From assembly GCA_016550425.1 (NCBI GenBank), contig JABXGS010000189.1:7962-71961 (forward strand): DNA of 64,000 nt, written 5' to 3'. Shown in pieces: positions 10 through 27,048 of the stretch. Made by a program: the position numbers and the translations under genes. The notes under the pieces are model-generated. The model saw only the letters and a list, made by a program, of their open reading frames with translations. It was not told the origin of the DNA and made no database searches. This stretch comes from an archaeon. GTDB taxonomy: Archaea > Asgardarchaeota > Hermodarchaeia > Hermodarchaeales > Hermodarchaeaceae. The first letter of the stretch is position 1, and each line of letters starts with the position of its first letter.

Positions 10-3000
10 TCATGGGTTTCCCTCCAGAACTTCCCTAAGATAGGGGGCTGTTGGTGTATTGGTTGTAGCGATGGCTTCAGGGGTTCCTGTGGCGATGATT
101 TGACCTCCATTAGGACCTCCTACTGGGCCAAGCTCAATTAGCCAATCGCATGATGCGAGGATGTAGGGGTGATGTTCTACCACAATCACCGTGTGTCCGC
201 TATCAACTAATTTTTGGAGCACTGTGATAAGTTGTGCAATATCTTCCATGTGGAGTCCCACAGAGGGTTCGTCTAAAATATAGAGCGTAGGTTTCTTTGT
301 CTTTTTGAGAAGCTCTTTGGCGATTTTCAATCGTTGGACTTCTCCACCGGACAAGGTGTAACTGCGTTGATTCCATACAAGATATCCTAATCCTACTTCC
401 CGAGTTATTTCAAGGGGCTCTGCTAGGCGTGGTTCATCCTTAAAGAGTTCAGAAACTTCGTTTAAGGTCATCTGGTTGAGTTCAGGCAATGTTACACCAT
501 TAACCCGGACTTCCCATGTTTCAGGGCGATACCCGCTTCCTTTACAGGTTTCACATTCAATCAACTCGTTGGGGAGAAAACCCATATCGATTCGAAGAAC
601 CCCACGTCCCTTACAAGCTGAACACGGTTTCGTTAATTCTTTTTTCTCTAATCCCAAGGCTTCTGCATCATCACTTTCAACAAAAAGCTTGTACATAGGT
701 GAGAGAAGATTCAAATAACTCGCGGGGCTTTTTATTCCTCTTCGTGACTGGTCTACCATCAAGGTCCGGTGCGGATTGCCAGATATTGTATCATATTCTC
801 CAGGTTCGAGGGGTTCTCGAGCAAAGGACGAAGAATGCAATTGCTTGATTAGAGCACGACCAATAGTATCGATTAGTAGGGTGCTTTTCCCCGATCCAGA
901 TACTCCACAGACGCCTGTAAAGGTTCTGAGGGGAAATCGTACTTCTTCTCCTTGCAGGTTGTTTTCACGTGCACCGGTAACAACCATCCATGATTTTGGT
1001 GGGCGTCGATTCTGGGAGTCCATCCAGGCTAGCAGTCCACGCTGCTTACAAGGCTTGTTACCTCTCTTGGTCTGTAACCATTTGCCGGTTAGTGTTTTTG
1101 CCGTGATAAGTTCTGCAGGCGTGCCTTCAGCGACAACCTTTCCTCCGAAGGCACCTGCCTTTGGTCCTAAATCAATAATGTGGTCTGCTGCCCGAATTAG
1201 TTGGAGGTCATGTTCAACCATGATGACGGTGTTGCCCTGATTACATATTTCATGTAACGCTTCAAGGAGTGCTTCTAATTCTGAAGGGTGCATTCCTCTT
1301 GATGGTTCATCAATGAGAATTGTCAAGGATGTTAATCCACTACCTAATAGACTTGCGAGCTGAATCCGTTGCGCTTCTCCGGCTGATAATGTGCCGATGG
1401 GACGATTCAAATGAAGGTAGCCGATGCCAACTTGACGTAAAAATCGTAACCGACGACGAATGAGCTCTATACTGGTCTCAACCAACGGGATATCAGCAGG
1501 AGGTGCTGGTATTTGGCTGATGAGGGTCTCCAATTCGGCCAGTGGCATCTCACTCATTTCGTAGATATTCTTATTCTGCAACGTCACAGTGAGAAATTCA
1601 GGACGAAGACCTGCTCCTTGACATTCGGGGCAAATGACTTCTTTAGTGTAGGTTCCATGGACATCCCAATTATAGATCCAGCTTTCCTTTTGATAGAATC
1701 CCTTCCACGTCCACTTGGTCTGTCGTTGCTTTCCTTTCAGCTTGCCCGTGGATTTACTAGTATAGGTAAATTTGTAGGTTTTCCCATCGCCATAGAAAAA
1801 GACTTCTTGGGCTTTTTTCGACATTTTATTCCAGGGGGTTTTGAACGGATCAAAGCCGTAGCCTTTACCCAACTCGGGAATAATCGGCTGGTCTTTACAC
1901 AAGTAGGTTTTTGGCCAGTATCCTGGCGACCACATTGCCCCTGCACATAATGGTTTATCGGGGTTCACAATGAGCTTTTCAGGTTGGGGCAGTCGTAGAA
2001 TACCTAATCCGTTACATTTCTTACACGAACTCAGCCAATGCGAAGAGGAAAAATATTGAGGCTTTGCGATGGGGGCGGTATTAGCACAGTTGGGGCAGAC
2101 CCATTGGTCTTCACGTTGCATTTGAGCCTCACATTTCAAACAAGTTCGCTGACCTAGCGCCGCCAGAACGTTTGCTAAATGGAAACTGAGCTCGGTCAGT
2201 GTTCCCACGATATTCCGGCGAGTAAATTGAGGGATATGGCTCCAAAGGTGCGCCCGGTGTGTCGCTACTGTCAATGTTACGCCCAAACCCTTAATCGAAT
2301 CCACTACCGCCTCGGGTCCCTCTCGGATGCCCTGGCGTTCAAACATCGACAGAGTCTCTAAATAGCGACGCCGTGCCTCGGTCTGCAAAACATCTTGCAC
2401 TAAGCTAGATTTCCCTGAACCCGACACACCCGTAACCACAGTTAAGGTGCCCTTTGGAATATCGACATCGATACCTTTCAAGTTATTAGCTCGAGCATTA
2501 CGCACTGCAATTACTGAGGTTGTTGGCGACATTATCTTGGTCGCTTTTCGTGGTTGCACCGCTTCTTCATTTTTTAATGCTCGGCCAGTGAGGGAATGCT
2601 TGTTCTCTAATAGGTTGGTTGGAGGTCCCTCATACAGGACCATTCCACCTCGTGGTCCCGCACCTGGACCAAGATCGATTACCCAATCTGCTGCACGAAT
2701 CAAATCGGTATTATGCTCCACAACAACGATGGTTGCTCCATGGCGTACCAATCGATCCAGTACGATAAGTAATCCATCAAGATCTTGGGGATGAAGTCCC
2801 GTTGATGGTTCATCCAACACGATAAGCTGGTTGTTCAATCGGTTTCGACCCAAGAACTTGGTCAGTTTGACTCGTTGCGCCTCTCCACCTGACAGGGTTG
2901 GTGACGGTTGTCCCAATTCCAAATAGCCTAATCCTACATCATTGAGCGCATCGAGAATCCGTTGCGCGGATTCACGTTTTGTTGAAGAGAGATGACGAGG

Positions 3001-4941
3001 TGAAGTGAGTTTTTCTCCCACTTCACTAATCGGCAGCTTGTAGAAATCTGCGATTGATAGTTGTTCACCATCAAATTCCACTTGCTTCGAGAGAACTTCT
3101 GGGTTAAACCGTTGTCCTTCACATTCTTCACAAGGAATCCAAATGGATGGGAGGTATTGCATTTTCACCTCTGTGGCCCCGATTCCCTTACAAGCAGAAC
3201 AAGCGCCTTCGGGGCGATTAAAGGAGAAATGGGATTTTGTTAATCCTGTGGCTTCCGCAAAGAGGTCACGGATAATATCTGCTAACTTAGTATATGTCGC
3301 TGGATTAGACCGTGGATTCCGACCGATAGGGCTTTGATCCACCAAGATTGGTTTAATCCAGGGTCCCTCAATGGCATTACAGCCAATTGGTTTCTTCTGT
3401 GAAAGTGAAGGGACTAAAACATGTTCAACGAAGGTACTTTTGCCTGAACCTGAGACACCAGAAATAACGGTTAATCTGCCAAGAGGAATTTTCGCATCAA
3501 GGTGCTTTAGGTTGTGTTGATACGCTTTCTTTACCCAAATAAATTCAGCAGGTGCAGGACGTGGCTTGGGTGTCATTACCCTCCTCTGGAGGCTGAAGTA
3601 TTGGCCAGTCGCAGTATCTGCAAGCCATAAATTCGCAGGAGAGCCTGTGAAAACAATTTTGCCTCCTTCTTTACCTGCACCTGGGCCCAAATCAATGGCA
3701 TGATTCGCGGCCGCAGCTGCTACCCGTTCATGTTCTACAAAAATCACAGGTCCTGGCAATTCTCGAAAGGCGGGAAGAAGACGAGCAATGTCTGCTGGAT
3801 GCTGACCAATCGTCGGTTCATCTAACACATGGAGGATGTCTTCCAATCGGCTGGCTAAGGATATGGAAAGTCTCACTCGTTGAGATTCTCCTCGGGAAAG
3901 CGTGGGTGATGCTCGATTCAACAATAGATACCCTAGTCCTACACGTTTCAAGGCGTCTAGCCGACGTTGAATCTCGGAGTGCAATCGCTTTGCGGTCGAG
4001 GGAAGGGTAACTTGCTTGAATAATGCACTACTCTCCTCCACAGAGAGCTCCAAGAGCTCAGGTAAACGGAATCCTTCCCAACGTACCGAAGCTGCTTGGG
4101 GATGCATTCCTGTATTGTCACAGCGTGTACATCCTTTCCCTTTGCAGTAGGGACAGGGTTGATTGAAATGTGTTGGACGTAACTCTCGAAAACCCGCACC
4201 ACAGACACTGCAAATCTGGGTTGTAGCTAATGTGGTGCTAGATTCGGGATTTTGAGTACAGAGGGCTCCAGCCCCTAAAGCGGTTGCCTGTTGGGCTAGC
4301 TTTCTGATTTGATTTGTCGATGACGAGCTATCAATCAGCCCTATTCTGAGCTCAATCGAGTGTGGTTCGCTTGGGGACAAGGTGGCTCCTTCCCATTCCT
4401 TCCCATCGACAATAATCTGTGAGTTGTCAAATTCTTGGCTAAGTGTTGATAGTAAGGTTTGATGGCTACCTTTTACTTTCCGGAGGAGGGGGGCAAATAA
4501 TTGATGCGGTGCCTGTTTAGCAAGAGAAGCTAATCGTTCAACAAGGTCATCATCGGTGAATCTACTTAGGGGCTCATTACATTGGAGGCAATAGCGAACA
4601 CCGTAGTTGGCGAAAAGTAATCGGAAAAAGGGGTGTAGCCCCGAGGCAGTAGCAAGTGTGGATCTTGGGTTTCGATTTAGCAAGTTTTGCCCGACGGCTA
4701 TTGTGGGGCCTAAACCTGTTATCGTTTCAACATTTGCTGGGGCTAACCGTTGACCGCCCCGACCGTACAAGAAGATTTCTAAAAAGCGTCGATTCGCTTC
4801 ATGGTATAAGGTATCAAAGACGAGTGATGTCTTTCCAGACCCAGAAACACCAGTAACTACGGTAAGACCATCACCTAACTGAACATCAATATTTTTGAGA
4901 TTATGTTCCCTTGCGCCTTTGATATGAATGTCCATGGGCAT
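10..4941 (-). CDS. Tandem UvrA-like protein with four ABC ATPase modules
   Basis: This 1643-residue protein is built like two UvrA proteins fused head to tail; UvrA itself is about 940 residues with two ABC modules. Four Walker A loops (GVSGSGK at about 31, 495, 838 and 1346), four UvrA-type signatures (LSRGESQR 349, LSGGEAQR 683, LSAGEAQR 1185, LSGGEVQR 1530) and four Walker B motifs with DEP are all intact. UvrA-type zinc-finger cysteines follow each module (about 243-274, 581-607, 934-976 with 1104-1107, 1440-1466). A Trp/Lys/Tyr-rich insertion lies at about 1003-1100. UvrA recognises damaged DNA as a dimer; related class III UvrA proteins are linked to drug resistance. A single chain here could form an intramolecular dimer (inference). 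The gene ends in TGA and no uvrB or uvrC is nearby. The next in-frame ATG is two codons downstream. Family call sure; role in repair or resistance unknown. Confidence 0.93.
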   Translation of the reverse strand: MPMDIHIKGAREHNLKNIDVQLGDGLTVVTGVSGSGKTSLVFDTLYHEANRRFLEIFLYGRGGQRLAPANVETITGLGPTIAVGQNLLNRNPRSTLATASGLHPFFRLLFANYGVRYCLQCNEPLSRFTDDDLVERLASLAKQAPHQLFAPLLRKVKGSHQTLLSTLSQEFDNSQIIVDGKEWEGATLSPSEPHSIELRIGLIDSSSSTNQIRKLAQQATALGAGALCTQNPESSTTLATTQICSVCGAGFRELRPTHFNQPCPYCKGKGCTRCDNTGMHPQAASVRWEGFRLPELLELSVEESSALFKQVTLPSTAKRLHSEIQRRLDALKRVGLGYLLLNRASPTLSRGESQRVRLSISLASRLEDILHVLDEPTIGQHPADIARLLPAFRELPGPVIFVEHERVAAAAANHAIDLGPGAGKEGGKIVFTGSPANLWLADTATGQYFSLQRRVMTPKPRPAPAEFIWVKKAYQHNLKHLDAKIPLGRLTVISGVSGSGKSTFVEHVLVPSLSQKKPIGCNAIEGPWIKPILVDQSPIGRNPRSNPATYTKLADIIRDLFAEATGLTKSHFSFNRPEGACSACKGIGATEVKMQYLPSIWIPCEECEGQRFNPEVLSKQVEFDGEQLSIADFYKLPISEVGEKLTSPRHLSSTKRESAQRILDALNDVGLGYLELGQPSPTLSGGEAQRVKLTKFLGRNRLNNQLIVLDEPSTGLHPQDLDGLLIVLDRLVRHGATIVVVEHNTDLIRAADWVIDLGPGAGPRGGMVLYEGPPTNLLENKHSLTGRALKNEEAVQPRKATKIMSPTTSVIAVRNARANNLKGIDVDIPKGTLTVVTGVSGSGKSSLVQDVLQTEARRRYLETLSMFERQGIREGPEAVVDSIKGLGVTLTVATHRAHLWSHIPQFTRRNIVGTLTELSFHLANVLAALGQRTCLKCEAQMQREDQWVCPNCANTAPIAKPQYFSSSHWLSSCKKCNGLGILRLPQPEKLIVNPDKPLCAGAMWSPGYWPKTYLCKDQPIIPELGKGYGFDPFKTPWNKMSKKAQEVFFYGDGKTYKFTYTSKSTGKLKGKQRQTKWTWKGFYQKESWIYNWDVHGTYTKEVICPECQGAGLRPEFLTVTLQNKNIYEMSEMPLAELETLISQIPAPPADIPLVETSIELIRRRLRFLRQVGIGYLHLNRPIGTLSAGEAQRIQLASLLGSGLTSLTILIDEPSRGMHPSELEALLEALHEICNQGNTVIMVEHDLQLIRAADHIIDLGPKAGAFGGKVVAEGTPAELITAKTLTGKWLQTKRGNKPCKQRGLLAWMDSQNRRPPKSWMVVTGARENNLQGEEVRFPLRTFTGVCGVSGSGKSTLLIDTIGRALIKQLHSSSFAREPLEPGEYDTISGNPHRTLMVDQSRRGIKSPASYLNLLSPMYKLFVESDDAEALGLEKKELTKPCSACKGRGVLRIDMGFLPNELIECETCKGSGYRPETWEVRVNGVTLPELNQMTLNEVSELFKDEPRLAEPLEITREVGLGYLVWNQRSYTLSGGEVQRLKIAKELLKKTKKPTLYILDEPSVGLHMEDIAQLITVLQKLVDSGHTVIVVEHHPYILASCDWLIELGPVGGPNGGQIIATGTPEAIATTNTPTAPYLREVLEGNP

Positions 4942-6856: not shown

Positions 6857-7597
6857 ATGCCTGATAACGTTCATGAAACACCAGATCTCTTTGGCTTGCT
6901 TCTCAAACGGCAACTCGAATGCACAGAACCAATGTATCATTCCATCGAACGGAACGATGGGTATATCGACTGCGCGAATACGCAGAGGTATTTTAGGGAA
7001 TGGAAAGACTGGTCAACAAACGAGCAGACTATTCTTGAACACGCTAAATCACCGGTCCTTGATATCGGCTGTGGTGCAGGTCGCCACGCGCTTTATCTCC
7101 AAAACCAAGGATTAGATGTCGTTGGATTAGACTTCTCCGAAGGCGCCGTTTACGTGTGTAAAAAGCGTGGATTGAAAAGAATTATTCTAGGATCTGCATG
7201 CGACTTACCTCCATTTAAGCAGCCGTTTAGCACTTTTTTGTTGCTTTTCAACAATTTCGGTATTTGTGGTGATCCCGCCAATACCATCACGTTACTTCAA
7301 AATCTATATCGCATTGGTACACCCACTGCTCGAATACTCTTGTCCTATGCCGATGTATCAAGTACAACCAATCCTTTCCACCTTGCCTTTCATAAGCGCA
7401 ATCTCGCTGAAGGACGCCGCAAAGGGCAAATTACCATTCGCTTCCGATACCAAGGATACATCGGATCTTGGTTCACCATCTGGCTTCCAACCTATCAGGA
7501 ATTTCAAGAAACTGTGCAAGAAACGGGTTGGAAAATTCAAATAGACCTTGAAGAAGAGGGGCTCCACCACGTCATGCTTACCAAATCGAAATCTTAA
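6857..7597 (+). CDS. Class I SAM-dependent methyltransferase
   Basis: A 246-residue protein. Motif I is VLDIGCGAGRHALYL (67-81), followed by the acidic ribose-binding residue in VVGLDFS (88-94) and a motif II/III region around LGSACDLPPF (111-120). These mark an S-adenosylmethionine-dependent methyltransferase of the Rossmann class; the substrate cannot be read from sequence. The N-terminus (MYHSIERNDGYID) is typical of small-molecule methyltransferases. The gene has a ribosome site, and the next gene, a BtrH-like protein, begins 25 bases after its stop with its own site, so both are probably one transcript and may act on the same molecule (inference). Confidence 0.85.
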   Translation: MPDNVHETPDLFGLLLKRQLECTEPMYHSIERNDGYIDCANTQRYFREWKDWSTNEQTILEHAKSPVLDIGCGAGRHALYLQNQGLDVVGLDFSEGAVYVCKKRGLKRIILGSACDLPPFKQPFSTFLLLFNNFGICGDPANTITLLQNLYRIGTPTARILLSYADVSSTTNPFHLAFHKRNLAEGRRKGQITIRFRYQGYIGSWFTIWLPTYQEFQETVQETGWKIQIDLEEEGLHHVMLTKSKS

Positions 7598-7622: not shown

Positions 7623-8957
7623 ATGGTGGTTATCGAAGAATATTCTCATTTTGGAGCAACAGAAAAAGTAGCCGGTGCTCTACGTAATATCCTAGACCAC
7701 TACGGTGTTGTTGCTCCCCATAACGGAGAGGCATATACTGAAGCCCTGCTTATGGGAATTGGAGGAGGGTTAGGTGCCGAATATGCTACCTGGGCGTTCA
7801 AAGGAATAGACCCTTCCCGTCCACGAAAAAGCAAACTATATCTCCGGTTTCATCATAACAAGAACTACATCGAGAAAAAAGAAGAGGCATACTTACAAAA
7901 ACTCGCTAAACGAATTAATGCACCATTGACGGTTCACGAGACGACGAATCGTGAACGTGCTGCCAACTTTCTCTCGGAATCAGTCCAAGCAGGAAAACCC
8001 GCACTGGTCCAGTTATCCATATGGCAGGGACTCCACTCGCGCAAAGCTGTATATGACCGTTACCACGATAATCCAGACTTTTTCCCTCCACTCCTATACG
8101 ACGAATTCGTCTCGTTTCTCCCTTACTATTCACTTCCCTACCCATGGATTTCAGGACACCTTGCTACCGTATATGGAATCGAGATAGACAAAGAACGCGT
8201 ACATATATCGGACTTTAGCAACCAACCTCTCACCATCAGCACTCAACAACTAATCGAATCTCGGAATATCATCAAAGGTTGGAAAAACGCAGCATACACC
8301 ATTGAACCCCCCATTACAAAACCAAATTTAGAAAAAGCCATACGCTCTGGAATCAAAGATTGTGTAGATAGTTTACTTCATGAACGAACTGTCGTCTCTG
8401 GTGCTCACATTCGCACTGAAGCCTGGCAAGCCATGGCAAACAACATCGGTGACTTCAAAAGCAAACGCGGATGGCTCACTCTTTTCAATCAACCCTGGCA
8501 ACTTTTCGATACCCTCACACGCCTCCATGCACAAATCGCCTTCCACAATAGCGATGGCGGTGCTCTCCGTTCCTCCTACGCAGATTTTCTCGAAGAGGCC
8601 AGCGAAATCCTAACGAAACCAGCAATCAAACCTGTTGCCCACCAATTCTCAGATATCGGCATCATGTGGGACGAAATTGGCACAACAGCCCTCAACGACG
8701 ATATTCCCGAACTCATTCAAGTCAGGCAAGCTGCTCTTAATTGGCATCATACTTTCAAAGCCTATGGAAGCGCACAATCTAACTCTCTCAACACGCTCAG
8801 CAAGAAAATCCAAAACATTCGAATGGCATTCAGCCAAGAAATCCCACTCACCGATCGTGAGCTTCAAACACTTCTTGAAGAATTGAGCGTGCGCTTCCAT
8901 GAAGTCTACGAAGCAGAAAAAACTGCACTTCAAGCATTAGTCACAGCAATGAAGTAA
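7623..8957 (+). CDS. BtrH_N/DUF4872 domain protein
   Basis: A 444-residue soluble protein. The N-terminal third has the BtrH_N pattern: a histidine followed by an Ala-rich helix ending DHYGV (about 9-29), then the Gly-rich LLMGIGGGLGAEYA (42-55), and about residue 180 the strand SGHLATVYGIEID with DFSNQP after it. The C-terminal part is helical and fits DUF4872. BtrH is the acyl-transferring enzyme of butirosin biosynthesis; archaeal relatives have no assigned role. In typical members the first histidine is followed by cysteine; here the pair reads HF, so the nucleophile usually assumed may be missing. AGGAGA at 7609-7614 supports the start. Likely co-transcribed with the methyltransferase upstream. 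Confidence 0.75.
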   Translation: MVVIEEYSHFGATEKVAGALRNILDHYGVVAPHNGEAYTEALLMGIGGGLGAEYATWAFKGIDPSRPRKSKLYLRFHHNKNYIEKKEEAYLQKLAKRINAPLTVHETTNRERAANFLSESVQAGKPALVQLSIWQGLHSRKAVYDRYHDNPDFFPPLLYDEFVSFLPYYSLPYPWISGHLATVYGIEIDKERVHISDFSNQPLTISTQQLIESRNIIKGWKNAAYTIEPPITKPNLEKAIRSGIKDCVDSLLHERTVVSGAHIRTEAWQAMANNIGDFKSKRGWLTLFNQPWQLFDTLTRLHAQIAFHNSDGGALRSSYADFLEEASEILTKPAIKPVAHQFSDIGIMWDEIGTTALNDDIPELIQVRQAALNWHHTFKAYGSAQSNSLNTLSKKIQNIRMAFSQEIPLTDRELQTLLEELSVRFHEVYEAEKTALQALVTAMK

Positions 8958-9720: not shown

Positions 9721-10209
9721 TTACTTTGTTATAGGATAATATAGATCCAATACGAGGTCTGCACCTGCATCTGGATCATGTGGTTTCTCGAGCCCTGGAT
9801 GGCCCCTATATTTGTACCCGTGCTCTTTTGCCCATTCATCTAAGCGCCACCAAGATTCTAGGACACCATGTTCTTTGAAGAATTCAGAGTCTAATTCTTC
9901 TTTCAACGCACATGTTGTGACAGCATACTCGCCGCCCTCCACCTCTTTTACTTCAACCACATTATCGGATTCGATGTCATCACCCACACGAATCCAGAAC
10001 ATGTAACCATATTCGCGTTTCCCAGGTTGAGGGGGCGGTTCATTAAACCCGAAGACAGGGTGCTGTTCTAAATCGCCCAACAATCCCTTCTTTTCCGCCC
10101 AAGCACGGAGCTTCGCCCAGGCTTCAAGTTCGGGCGTTTCACTAATCACAACAACACTTGCTACCCGCATCGGCGCAAGCTTGACAATTCGAACATCTTT
10201 TTTGTTCAT
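9721..10209 (-). CDS. GyrI-like small-molecule-binding domain protein
   Basis: A 162-residue stand-alone GyrI-like (AraC effector-binding) domain: MRVASVVVISETPE near the N-terminus, AWAEKKGLLGDL, HPVFGFNEPPPQPG and YGYMFWIRV in the middle, and LVLDLYYPI at the end. GyrI-like domains bind small hydrophobic or cationic ligands in regulators such as BmrR and Rob, and some have hydrolase activity. It is clearly a paralog of the C-terminal domain of the next gene (10237-11130), sharing these motifs in order, so the pair arose by local duplication. Gap to that gene is 27 bases; both are probably on one transcript. A ligand reservoir, accessory sensor or enzyme are all possible. Confidence 0.7.
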   Translation of the reverse strand: MNKKDVRIVKLAPMRVASVVVISETPELEAWAKLRAWAEKKGLLGDLEQHPVFGFNEPPPQPGKREYGYMFWIRVGDDIESDNVVEVKEVEGGEYAVTTCALKEELDSEFFKEHGVLESWWRLDEWAKEHGYKYRGHPGLEKPHDPDAGADLVLDLYYPITK

Positions 10210-10236
10210 TTCCTTTACATTCCTTTCATACAGTTA

Positions 10237-11130
10237 TTACGAAGGTTTCTGAATCTCTTTGATTGGTTGATACAAGTCCAGGACCATTTCTTTGAATGTG
10301 GCATTCGGATCATGTGCTTTCTCAAGAATTTGACGGGATTCATCCATCTCGTATTTTTCACTGAGAATCACCCAGTCCACGAGTTTTTTCCACGATTCCA
10401 GAAATCCATGTTCTTTCCCAAAGTCGGATTGCATGTCCTCCCAGATATTACAGGTCGTGACAGCGAATAACCCGCCATCATAATCCTTGGCTTCGATGTC
10501 TCCTTCACCCTTGAAGTGCGCCCCTATCCGAATCCAGAACTCATACCCATACTCCTTTTGCCCAGGAGAGGGATTTGGATTATTGAATCCGAACACTGGG
10601 TGCTTATTCAAATCATCCAACAACCCTTGAGGCTCAGCCCATGCTCGCATCTTCTCCCAGGCATCATTTTCAGGGGATTCACTAAACGCCCTGACGCTCG
10701 CGATGCGCATGGGTTCGAGCTCCACTACTTGTACAAACAAATCTTCGATCTCCTTTTCCTTGCGTTCTGCATAGATTTTCTCAATATACCGTTTCGTCCT
10801 CGTCGACTTCAGCCCCGCATATCGATTCGAATCGAGATATGTGGAACTTATCGCGGTCAGAAACGCATGCCCGTCAGGAGTAATTTCATAGCGTCCCCGT
10901 CCCTTCTGTTTGATAATCTCCATCTTAGCAAGTAATCCGAGATGATGAGATAACGCGGTTTTGCCTAGTTTTGTAAGCTCCTTAAGTTCGCTGAATATCC
11001 GCGGACGAATTAATAATGCTGAAAGAATGCGTAACCGTTTTGTGTTTCCAAGTGCTGCTAGGACATCAGCAAGGTCTTCAGCGAGTTTTCCGGTTACGTT
11101 CCAGGCTGTTTCAGTATCCGTATTGTTCAT
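10237..11130 (-). CDS. ArsR-type regulator fused to GyrI-like ligand-binding domain
   Basis: 297 residues. Residues about 10-110 form a winged helix of the ArsR type (LADVLAALGNTKRLRILSAL, then LTKLGKTALSHHLGLLAK as recognition helix, then the wing KGRGRYEITPDG). The C-terminal 160 residues are a GyrI-like effector domain (MRIASVRAFSESPE, HPVFGFNNP, YGYEFWIRIG, MVLDLYQPI). This gives a one-component regulator that senses a small molecule. A longer frame exists upstream (to 11196), but the TATA box at 11169-11178 lies inside that extension, so ATG at 11130 is chosen, giving a leader of about 13 bases. It heads a leftward unit with its own stand-alone paralog and an acetyltransferase. Confidence 0.8.
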   Translation of the reverse strand: MNNTDTETAWNVTGKLAEDLADVLAALGNTKRLRILSALLIRPRIFSELKELTKLGKTALSHHLGLLAKMEIIKQKGRGRYEITPDGHAFLTAISSTYLDSNRYAGLKSTRTKRYIEKIYAERKEKEIEDLFVQVVELEPMRIASVRAFSESPENDAWEKMRAWAEPQGLLDDLNKHPVFGFNNPNPSPGQKEYGYEFWIRIGAHFKGEGDIEAKDYDGGLFAVTTCNIWEDMQSDFGKEHGFLESWKKLVDWVILSEKYEMDESRQILEKAHDPNATFKEMVLDLYQPIKEIQKPS

Positions 11131-11168
11131 GAGAAAATCCCGGCGAGACTTCGTTGTGTCGGTTTCAC

Positions 11169-11178
11169 TTTTATATGT
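11169..11178 (-). promoter_or_regulatory. TATA box of the ArsR/GyrI-like unit
   Basis: CATATAAAAG on the minus strand, preceded by GAAA. The predicted transcription start is near 11145, about 15 bases before the ATG at 11130. This box decides the start codon of the regulator gene. Confidence 0.65.
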
Positions 11179-11331
11179 TTCGATAAAATTGAACATTAGA
11201 CCTAATTCTACTGAACATTATGTGTAAAGAACAGCAGAAATCCAGGACTCTAATGCAGTTGATGATTTCAATATCAAGCATTCTTACATCGACAAGTTTG
11301 ATAAACATAAATTGCTAATCAGCTTCAAAGA

Positions 11332-25546: not shown

Positions 25547-27001
25547 CTAGAACCATCGGGTGATTACGACTTTGTTCTCCGTGAAAAAGTCTATGGCATC
25601 TCGGCCCTGCCCGTGGAGATCGCCAAAGAAGGAATCCTTCATTCCTGAAAATGGAAATGAGGCAATTGGGGCCACAACGCCGATATTGATTCCGATGTTT
25701 CCAGCTCGAACCCGGTATTGGTATTTGCGAGCCCACTTTCCGCTTGAAGTAAATATCGATGACGCGTTTCCGTGGGGATTGCGATGAATGATGTCGATGG
25801 CTTCATCTAAGTCTTTGACATGGATGATCGACATCACGGGTCCAAAGATTTCTTCTTTGGCAATGGTCATATCGGGAGTCACTTTGTCAAAGATCGATGG
25901 ACCAAGAAACAAGCCCTTGGGATAATCAGGTACCTTGACTTTTCGACCATCAAGGATGAGTTTGGCTCCTTCTTTGATTCCCAATTCAATATACTTGAGT
26001 ACGCGATCAAGGCCTGCCTTGGTTGCTAGAGGTCCCATGTGGGTGCCTTCGTCAAGACCGTTGCCTACCACTAAGCGTTTGGCTGCTTCAACGACTGCTT
26101 TTTTGATTGGCTCGTAGATGTCCCCGACGGCAAGTAAGACTGCTCCACTCAAGCACCGCTGACCCGTGTTCCCAAAAAACGAACTCATTAGATTTGGTAC
26201 TGTTCGTTCGATATTAGCATCGGGCATGATTGTAAGGTGATTCTTTGCACCAGCTTGGACTTGGGTGCGTTTTCCATGTTCACCACATTTCTTGTATAAA
26301 AGGCGACCAACCTTGGTCGATCCCACAAAGGACATACCCACCGTATCAGGGCTTTCGATTAAAGTGTTGACTGCGGTCGGTCCTCCAAGCACGAGGTTCA
26401 TGACGCCCTTGGGAAATCCAATTTCGTCAATGAGTTCAAATTGCCTGACTTGGCTAATTGGCTTGAGATCAGAGGGTTTCACAATGTACGTGTTTCCGCA
26501 GGCAACTGCATAAGGCCAAAACCAGCCAGGCACCATTCCAGGAAAATTAAATGGCGCTACGCAGAAAAATACGCCCAAGGGTTGTTTAATCAACATCTCG
26601 TCGATGCCGCTCGAAATATCCTCGAAATTATATCCCATCTGAAGGTGCGGAATAGCCGCCCCCGCTTCGACATTTTCAATAGTCCGACGGAACTCTCCGC
26701 GAGCCTCATCGAGGATTTTACCATGTTCAATAGTAATGGTTCTAGACAAGTCTTCAAAATTCTCTTCTATCGCATCACGAAACTGGAAAAGATAACGGAT
26801 TCGTGTTTGCGCTGGAGTTGATCTCCATCGCCAGAATGCGGCTTTGGCTGCGGCAATGGCTGCTTGGGTTTCTTCAGCAGTGGACATGGGCACCTTCGCG
26901 AGTAACTCACCGGTTACTGGATTGATGACGTCTCGGGTTTCCTTTGATTTGGGTTCCACCCAGCGACCATTAATGTAGTTTTTCAGGATTTCGCCTTTCA
27001 T
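25547..27001 (-). CDS. mmsA: CoA-acylating methylmalonate-semialdehyde dehydrogenase
   Basis: 484 residues of the aldehyde dehydrogenase superfamily with the marks of the CoA-acylating MMSDH branch: CVAPFNFPGMVPGWFWPYA (about 145-163), NAD-site KPSDLKP and FVGSTKVG, and the nucleophile Cys in GNTGQRCLSG (about 273-282). MMSDH turns methylmalonate or malonate semialdehyde plus CoA and NAD+ into propionyl- or acetyl-CoA, in valine, inositol or uracil breakdown. ATG 27001 is preferred over GTG 27004 because GAGAAGGTG lies upstream. It follows a TetR gene by 47 bases and is followed by a helical protein, forming one unit likely under TetR control. Confidence 0.92.
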   Translation of the reverse strand: MKGEILKNYINGRWVEPKSKETRDVINPVTGELLAKVPMSTAEETQAAIAAAKAAFWRWRSTPAQTRIRYLFQFRDAIEENFEDLSRTITIEHGKILDEARGEFRRTIENVEAGAAIPHLQMGYNFEDISSGIDEMLIKQPLGVFFCVAPFNFPGMVPGWFWPYAVACGNTYIVKPSDLKPISQVRQFELIDEIGFPKGVMNLVLGGPTAVNTLIESPDTVGMSFVGSTKVGRLLYKKCGEHGKRTQVQAGAKNHLTIMPDANIERTVPNLMSSFFGNTGQRCLSGAVLLAVGDIYEPIKKAVVEAAKRLVVGNGLDEGTHMGPLATKAGLDRVLKYIELGIKEGAKLILDGRKVKVPDYPKGLFLGPSIFDKVTPDMTIAKEEIFGPVMSIIHVKDLDEAIDIIHRNPHGNASSIFTSSGKWARKYQYRVRAGNIGINIGVVAPIASFPFSGMKDSFFGDLHGQGRDAIDFFTENKVVITRWF

Positions 27002-27048
27002 CACACAGACACCTTCTCTTGTATAATCTAAAGAGAGGGTGACTAAGG

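Follow-up and report, generated by a model that had tools for sequence, protein, structure and literature searches.

Tandem UvrA-like proteins whose two halves appear to have lost complementary accessory domains

Two types of ATP site are distinguished in UvrA: the proximal site, formed by ATP-binding domain I and signature II, and the distal site, formed by ATP-binding domain II and signature I (PMC6486640). In addition, two accessory domains of the Escherichia coli protein were delimited by deletions, the UvrB-binding domain (residues 131-248) and the insertion domain (residues 290-400); UvrA without 131-248 had no detectable repair, and UvrA without 290-400 showed weaker damage discrimination (PMC3025350). 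Both UvrA2B2 and UvrA2B1 have been proposed as the stoichiometry of the bacterial damage sensor, and it is debated how one strand comes to be marked by a symmetric dimer (PMC7835731). Class I UvrAs, such as that of E. coli, carry both accessory domains in one protomer, and class II UvrAs, such as UvrA2 from D. radiodurans and Ecm16, have the insertion domain without the UvrB-binding domain. Tandem UvrAs are represented by the NCBIfam model NF001885/PRK00635 (1809 positions), which we take to describe chlamydial UvrA with two UvrA units per chain, as the model length would fit. Other tandems include a megaplasmid protein from Mycetohabitans endofungorum (L055, 1975 aa), annotated simply as uvrA, and an ORF from Cupriavidus metallidurans (L010, 1982 codons, start uncertain) that has no feature in the gene table. 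Two more, L016:5977-11496 (1840 aa, with the same ORF positions in L017) and L018:6061-11943 (1961 aa), stand on IMG/VR contigs that are filed as viral and may be host DNA.

What we describe here is a tandem encoded in a stretch of archaeal DNA of 64,000 nucleotides, analysed in full and referred to as the window:

10..4941, minus strand: tandem UvrA-like gene, a single uninterrupted ORF with an ATG start, 1643 aa, matching TIGR00630; its listed homologues are all tandem
2530..4941, minus strand: N half, residues 1-804, a UvrA without the insertion domain
13..2529, minus strand: C half, residues 805-1643, a UvrA without the UvrB-binding domain, from PDB sequence alignments

The protein scores 1370.9 bits against the NCBIfam UvrA model TIGR00630 (cut-off 729.8), over five matched stretches. 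Its two UvrA-like halves hold four Walker A and four Walker B motifs, the latter reading DEP, which bears out the claim of an earlier note on this DNA that one chain carries four ABC modules. Sequence identity is 38% between the halves and, against E. coli UvrA, 39.6% for N and 37.8% for C; when each half was searched alone against the PDB, UvrA structures ranked first for both. The AlphaFold2 model of the C half (pLDDT 82.5, pTM 0.79) had only UvrA-type structures among its top 26 matches, and that of the N half aligned over 779 of its 804 residues to 3uwx_A, the UvrA of a UvrA-UvrB complex, and over 644 to 2vf7_A, D. radiodurans UvrA2.

The homologue set comprises the best 120 of 7999 scored database proteins, the window's own included, and every family count given below refers to these 120 listed members, not to all 7999. 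Each of the 120 is a tandem with four Walker A motifs; the length is 1617-1689 aa in 119 cases and 1537 aa in one, and the window protein is 59-77% identical to the other 119. The joint is short, with 325-357 residues between the second and third Walker A motifs across the listed members. Fourteen bear taxon names, namely Promethearchaeota (2), Bathyarchaeota (4), Acidobacteria (1), Desulfatiglandales (1) and Chloroflexota with its subgroups (6, entered under Chloroflexota, Anaerolineae, Anaerolineales, Dehalococcoidia and Dehalococcoidales), although individual names may be wrong since the sources are mostly metagenome bins. The closest named relatives among the listed matches are the two from Promethearchaeota (77% and 76% identity), which makes an Asgard or related archaeon the probable source of the DNA. 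Further taxa met in searches with the separate halves include Hodar-, Hermodar-, Thor- and Odinarchaeota as well as Chitinispirillia.

A search of genome contigs with the full protein gave one weak match, in Paenibacillus, and the tandem was found in none of 61 sampled Bacillota genomes (E <= 1e-100), five of which matched over the length of one half in frames of 941-1026 aa. Among plasmids 742 records matched and among phages 40, all below 60% identity, and the family with complementary loss was absent from the 20 and the 10 matches listed, respectively; what these searches listed, a second plasmid search included, were single UvrAs and Burkholderiaceae tandems. Scanning viral contigs with 14 family members gave 39 loci, with tandems in three (L016, L017 and L018). 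One single UvrA, on the Klebsiella grimontii plasmid pNY3A (L012:426-4289, 1288 aa, annotated at 468-4292), has its first Walker A motif only at residue 364 and so a long N-terminal extension.

The distribution of accessory domains is what sets this family apart. The features concerned are the following:

4213..4578, minus strand: N-half UvrB-binding domain, residues about 122-243, flanked by the CxxC pairs of zinc module 1 (PF17760)
4120..4155, minus strand: collapsed zinc module 2 of the N half, C263-x2-C-x4-C-x2-C274, insertion domain gone, cysteines kept
3121..3201, minus strand: N-half zinc module 3, C581-C607, cysteines in 120/120 listed members
2086..2142, minus strand: collapsed zinc module 1 of the C half, C934-x2-C-x11-C-x2-C952, UvrB-binding domain gone, cysteines kept
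1633..2013, minus strand: C-half insertion (DNA-binding) domain, residues 977-1103, flanked by the CxxC pairs of zinc module 2 (PF17755)
544..624, minus strand: C-half zinc module 3, C1440-C1466, cysteines in 120/120 listed members

The 240 half-sequences were aligned with 51 reference rows, made up of 43 single UvrAs and eight halves of four other tandems; L017, which duplicates L016, and three partial ORFs were left out. In all 120 listed members, the N half has 110-116 residues in the UvrB-binding columns and none in the insertion-domain columns, and the C half has 1-7 and 107-113, respectively. Consequently, each half is without one of the two domains that class I combines in one protomer, neither half is complete in any listed member, and the full domain set exists only in the whole chain. 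Both losses fall within a zinc module, between its paired CxxC motifs, and the 11 cysteine columns of E. coli UvrA that we took as zinc ligands hold Cys in both halves of all listed members. Pfam agrees when the halves are scanned apart: PF17760 (UvrA_inter) matches the N half only, at 24.0 bits (cut-off 23.3; 22.4 and just below it in the whole-protein scan), and PF17755 (UvrA_DNA-bind) the C half only, at 29.7 bits (cut-off 23.2; 30.2 in the whole-protein scan). Among the 43 single UvrAs, 19 have both domains, 23 have the insertion domain without the UvrB-binding domain, one (L031) is intermediate, and none shows the N-half layout. Because of these counts, the C half can be said to have class II content and the N half, which is the opposite, to be unlike the singles examined.

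That the halves differ in their insertions and may be specialised, as the earlier note proposed, is therefore strongly supported, both by the complementary loss in every listed member, with the two Pfam domains confined to one half each, and by the separate clades described below. Its idea that one chain equals a UvrA dimer seems plausible, although the domain count is only half that of a dimer, with one of each domain and not two. As for novelty, tandems as such were already known from NF001885/PRK00635 and from Mycetohabitans, and what stands is that the window protein falls below the cut-off of the curated family and divides the parts between its halves. The complementary loss thus appears to be the new point, and no description of it was found in the titles and abstracts of the openly licensed (CC) PMC literature searched.

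The same note had taken all nucleotide-binding motifs to be intact, which holds for the Walker motifs and for signatures 2 and 4, and fails for signatures 1 and 3:

4828..4851, minus strand: Walker A 1, GVSGSGKT, residues 31-38
3886..3900, minus strand: signature 1, altered, LSRGE, residues 348-352; Arg in 120/120 listed members
3436..3459, minus strand: Walker A 2, GVSGSGKS, residues 495-502
2881..2895, minus strand: signature 2, LSGGE, residues 683-687; Gly at position 3 in 119/120 listed members
2407..2430, minus strand: Walker A 3, GVSGSGKS, residues 838-845
1375..1389, minus strand: signature 3, altered, LSAGE, residues 1185-1189; Ala in 118/120 listed members, Val in one, Thr in one
883..906, minus strand: Walker A 4, GVSGSGKS, residues 1346-1353
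340..354, minus strand: signature 4, LSGGE, residues 1530-1534; Gly at position 3 in 113/120 listed members

The Walker A lysine is present in 120/120 listed members at all four sites, and the Walker B Asp-Glu in all 120 at three sites; the fourth site has it in 119/120, with a gap in the remaining row. Four Glu-His pairs of the H-loop type are invariant in 14 aligned members. Since the ABC-I signatures read LSRGE in the N half and LSAGE in the C half, both distal ATP sites are altered, and the LSGGE expected at every signature of a UvrA is missing from signature I of either half. The 14 class I references, which were chosen by hand among the 19 singles that carry both domains (L012, L022, L023, L025 and L043 were left out), all have Gly at this third position. 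The residues that tell the site types apart are otherwise kept: the distal-site Arg before signature I, a marker according to PMC6486640, in both halves of all 120 listed members, and the proximal-site Gln before signature II in 119/120 (N) and 120/120 (C). From the changed residue we infer that hydrolysis may be slowed or abolished at the two distal sites.

The descent of the halves was followed in a tree of 64 rows and 708 columns that excluded both accessory domains. It contained 24 halves from 12 of the 120 listed members, eight halves of other tandems, and 32 of the 43 singles, from which L031 and near-copies at 85% had been removed. The N halves form one clade and the C halves another, each with 100/100 support and a similar inner order, on long stems of 1.73 and 1.58 changes per column. 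The tree of both halves that had been suggested is clear on these two clades, but their placement among UvrAs, including relative to class II and the other tandems, is weakly supported (38/85) and subject to long branches. Distances among N halves and among C halves correlate over all 120 listed members (r 0.934, with none of 999 permutations as high), and the simplest reading would be one fusion before the family spread, followed by joint descent of the halves. In AU tests, grouping the halves with their counterparts in L010, L055 and L016 was not rejected (p 0.137 for the N and 0.348 for the C halves), and joining both halves of the tandem family in one clade gave p 0.477; a single fusion event shared with the other tandems is neither supported nor rejected. 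The idea that the halves also exist as separate natural genes was dropped, as fragment ends and starts are spread along the whole protein, ten of the N-starting fragments ending at 750-799 and ten also at 950-999. Two pairs of entries, P0127/P0263 and P0237/P0258, combine an N-half-like and a C-half-like sequence whose longest contigs are equal in length, as if a gene had been split into two ORFs.

Most of the arginines that bind DNA and, as aligned here, of the residues that contact UvrB are replaced. Of the published UvrB-surface pair R216/E222, both charges are retained in only 5/120 listed N halves, against 14/14 class I references; the alignment register is uncertain here because the same predicted helix has, two columns off, an Arg kept in 119/120 listed members (R213 in the window). 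Over E. coli residues 121-253, the N halves share the consensus at 19 of 42 class I-conserved columns, one of which is a gap column. In E. coli UvrA, the joint change of four arginines (712, 722, 724 and 730) abolished repair; at these positions the listed N halves keep one basic residue in 106/120 and two in 14/120, and the listed C halves keep none in 98/120, one in 20 and two in 2, whereas 12/14 class I references keep all four. R176 and R206, which we had presumed to be UvrB-contact residues, are given no weight because no paper was found to support them. The N half retains the canonical DQSPIGRNPRSNPATYT segment, and in the C half of all 120 listed members the DQSPIGR segment has a deletion of PIG. 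This deletion was considered as a mark of lost UvrB contact and rejected, because ten of ten class II references without the UvrB-binding domain retain the Pro and Gly of PIG, which are altered in most of seven shorter class II ones.

A tblastn search of the 64 kb with the E. coli proteins as queries found neither uvrB nor uvrC, in line with the earlier remark that they are not adjacent, although a very diverged copy could escape; UvrB gave only a 24-residue match (E 0.49) and UvrC nothing at E <= 1. ARAGORN found no tRNA in the window, and Rfam no family at gathering score. The ten nearest ORFs of at least 120 aa after the tandem gene, overlapping ones skipped, encode two proteins without a Pfam match, a DUF3788 protein, a methyltransferase, a BtrH_N/DUF4872 protein, two GNAT acetyltransferases, two Cass2/GyrI-like proteins (one with an ArsR-type domain) and an FMN reductase, with no pointer to a repair operon. 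The two Cass2/GyrI-like ligand-binding domains lie in adjoining genes (9721-11196, minus strand), the second fused to an ArsR-type helix-turn-helix, and the BtrH_N and DUF4872 protein (7623-8957, plus strand), which resembles butirosin biosynthesis protein H, adjoins the methyltransferase at 6857-7597. Further away, 25547-27004 (minus strand) encodes a methylmalonate-semialdehyde dehydrogenase (512.8 bits, subfamily cut-off 448.5). All matches of the window's regulators to the archaeal models DUF7347, HVO_A0261_N and MsvR were below cut-off and say little about the source. A role in defence was considered with PADLOC, in which 50 families matched (best mad3 and mad8), and rejected, since these look like generic ABC/AAA matches.

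The reading that we favour, with a probability of about one half, is that the tandem gene encodes a single-chain, obligately asymmetric UvrA pseudo-heterodimer. The two UvrA halves, joined end to end, would fold against each other; the N half, which keeps the UvrB-binding domain and the DQSPIGRNPRSNPATYT segment, would be the partner-docking half, and the C half, with its conserved insertion domain, the DNA-reading one. The chain would clamp distorted DNA through its one insertion domain and the shared groove, ATP would mainly be bound at the distal sites and hydrolysed at the proximal ones, and at most one UvrB would dock, on a fixed side. The tandem would in this way resemble the UvrA2-UvrB1 state that occurs in ordinary nucleotide excision repair, except that its asymmetry would be a fixed property of the polypeptide. 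In favour of this reading we count the complementary domains, the agreement of Pfam and PDB, the longer alignment of the N-half model to 3uwx_A than to 2vf7_A, the zinc cysteines, the site-type residues, the joint descent of the halves and the separable effects of the two E. coli UvrA domain deletions (PMC3025350); against it, the mostly lost charges of R216/E222, the mostly replaced arginines 712/722/724/730, the PF17760 score under cut-off in the whole-protein scan and the limited match at class I-conserved columns. The tandem may still load UvrB.

A different role, which we regard as possible though less probable, would be that of a UvrB-independent, adduct-removing UvrA relative like the class II Ecm16, whose insertion domain would bind drug or adduct DNA and which would use ATP to strip the ligand; the UvrB-binding domain of the N half would then be a structural leftover or a dock for another partner. 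Mean pairwise identity of the insertion domain (columns 284-404) is 0.648 in the C halves, unusually constrained against 0.347 in the 14 class I references, and that of the UvrB-binding domain is 0.443, lower than in any other N-half region measured. For ATP-binding domain I, the values are similar, at 0.787 and 0.753 in the halves and 0.81 in class I. With the insertion domain conserved and the UvrB-binding domain not, this pattern also suits an Ecm16-like role as outlined in PMC10192343, where the resistance of E. coli K12 to echinomycin is reported, and the rarely kept UvrB-contact charges and the replaced DNA-binding arginines point the same way. However, the value of 0.443 is about the class I level (0.464), the UvrB-binding domain is complete in 120/120 listed members and confidently modelled in the N half of the window protein, and zinc module 1, reported as lost in Ecm16, is kept in both halves.

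It is unlikely that the protein is an ordinary UvrA of nucleotide excision repair, merely doubled and redundant, with two tandem chains pairing as usual. Tandems with one or two complete halves do exist (L010, L055, L016 and L018), and the AU tests leave room for a grouping with three of them, but no listed member has a complete half, the other tandems keep LSGGE at signature I in six of six halves inspected, and long stems lead to both half-clades. An assembly or annotation artefact, in which two neighbouring genes were wrongly joined, is hardly credible: some database entries stop or begin near the joint, and the two pairs mentioned above look matched, but the best 120 homologues are all full tandems from several source collections, fragment ends are scattered along the length, with the bins 750-799 and 950-999 tying, and the missed stop or misassembly that the earlier note considered is very unlikely because 119 other database entries share the layout.

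A chain with exactly one UvrB-binding and one insertion domain, the pattern of every listed member, is a natural experiment on which parts are needed once and which twice. It also shows how complementary loss can turn the homodimer of an ABC protein into a heterodimer within one chain, here with the same signature position changed at both distal sites. Only tentatively, and with considerable doubt, would we extend this to a widespread archaeal and bacterial family in which the UvrA dimer became an obligate single-chain heterodimer, one half only docking UvrB and the other only reading DNA. UvrB would then be loaded 1:1 and always on the same side of the lesion, which would naturally answer the questions of UvrA2B1 or UvrA2B2 and of strand choice.

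Compared with the systems described to date, the window protein shares with NF001885/PRK00635 the presence of two UvrA units in one chain, in the form of four Walker A motifs and two halves, but lies outside this curated family by its cut-off, scoring 910.4 bits against 3054; the relative P0108 (822.9) and L010, L016 and L018 (1073-1296) are also below it. The Burkholderiaceae (L010, L055) and IMG/VR (L016, L018) tandems are likewise single chains with four Walker A motifs. However, their N halves retain both domains (UvrB-binding 115-124 and insertion 100-121 residues), and their C halves, unlike that of the window protein, retain the UvrB-binding domain (116-131 residues), with an insertion domain that is shortened to 31-34 residues in L010, L055 and L016 and kept in L018 (101). 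Their signature I is LSGGE in the six halves inspected (L010, L016 and L018), whereas it is altered in the window. Class II UvrAs have the same domain content as the C half, which in the window is fused to an N half bearing the UvrB-binding domain; the Cys of zinc module 1 remain in both window halves and not, as reported, in Ecm16, and the C halves of the family lack the PIG whose Pro and Gly are kept in ten of ten class II references, though altered in most of the seven shorter ones. Finally, class I UvrA (E. coli, TIGR00630) has the same ABC layout, three zinc modules as in each half and the same proximal and distal site residues, whereas the window protein consists of two fused halves, each without one accessory domain, with altered ABC-I signatures and a mostly replaced patch of DNA-binding arginines.
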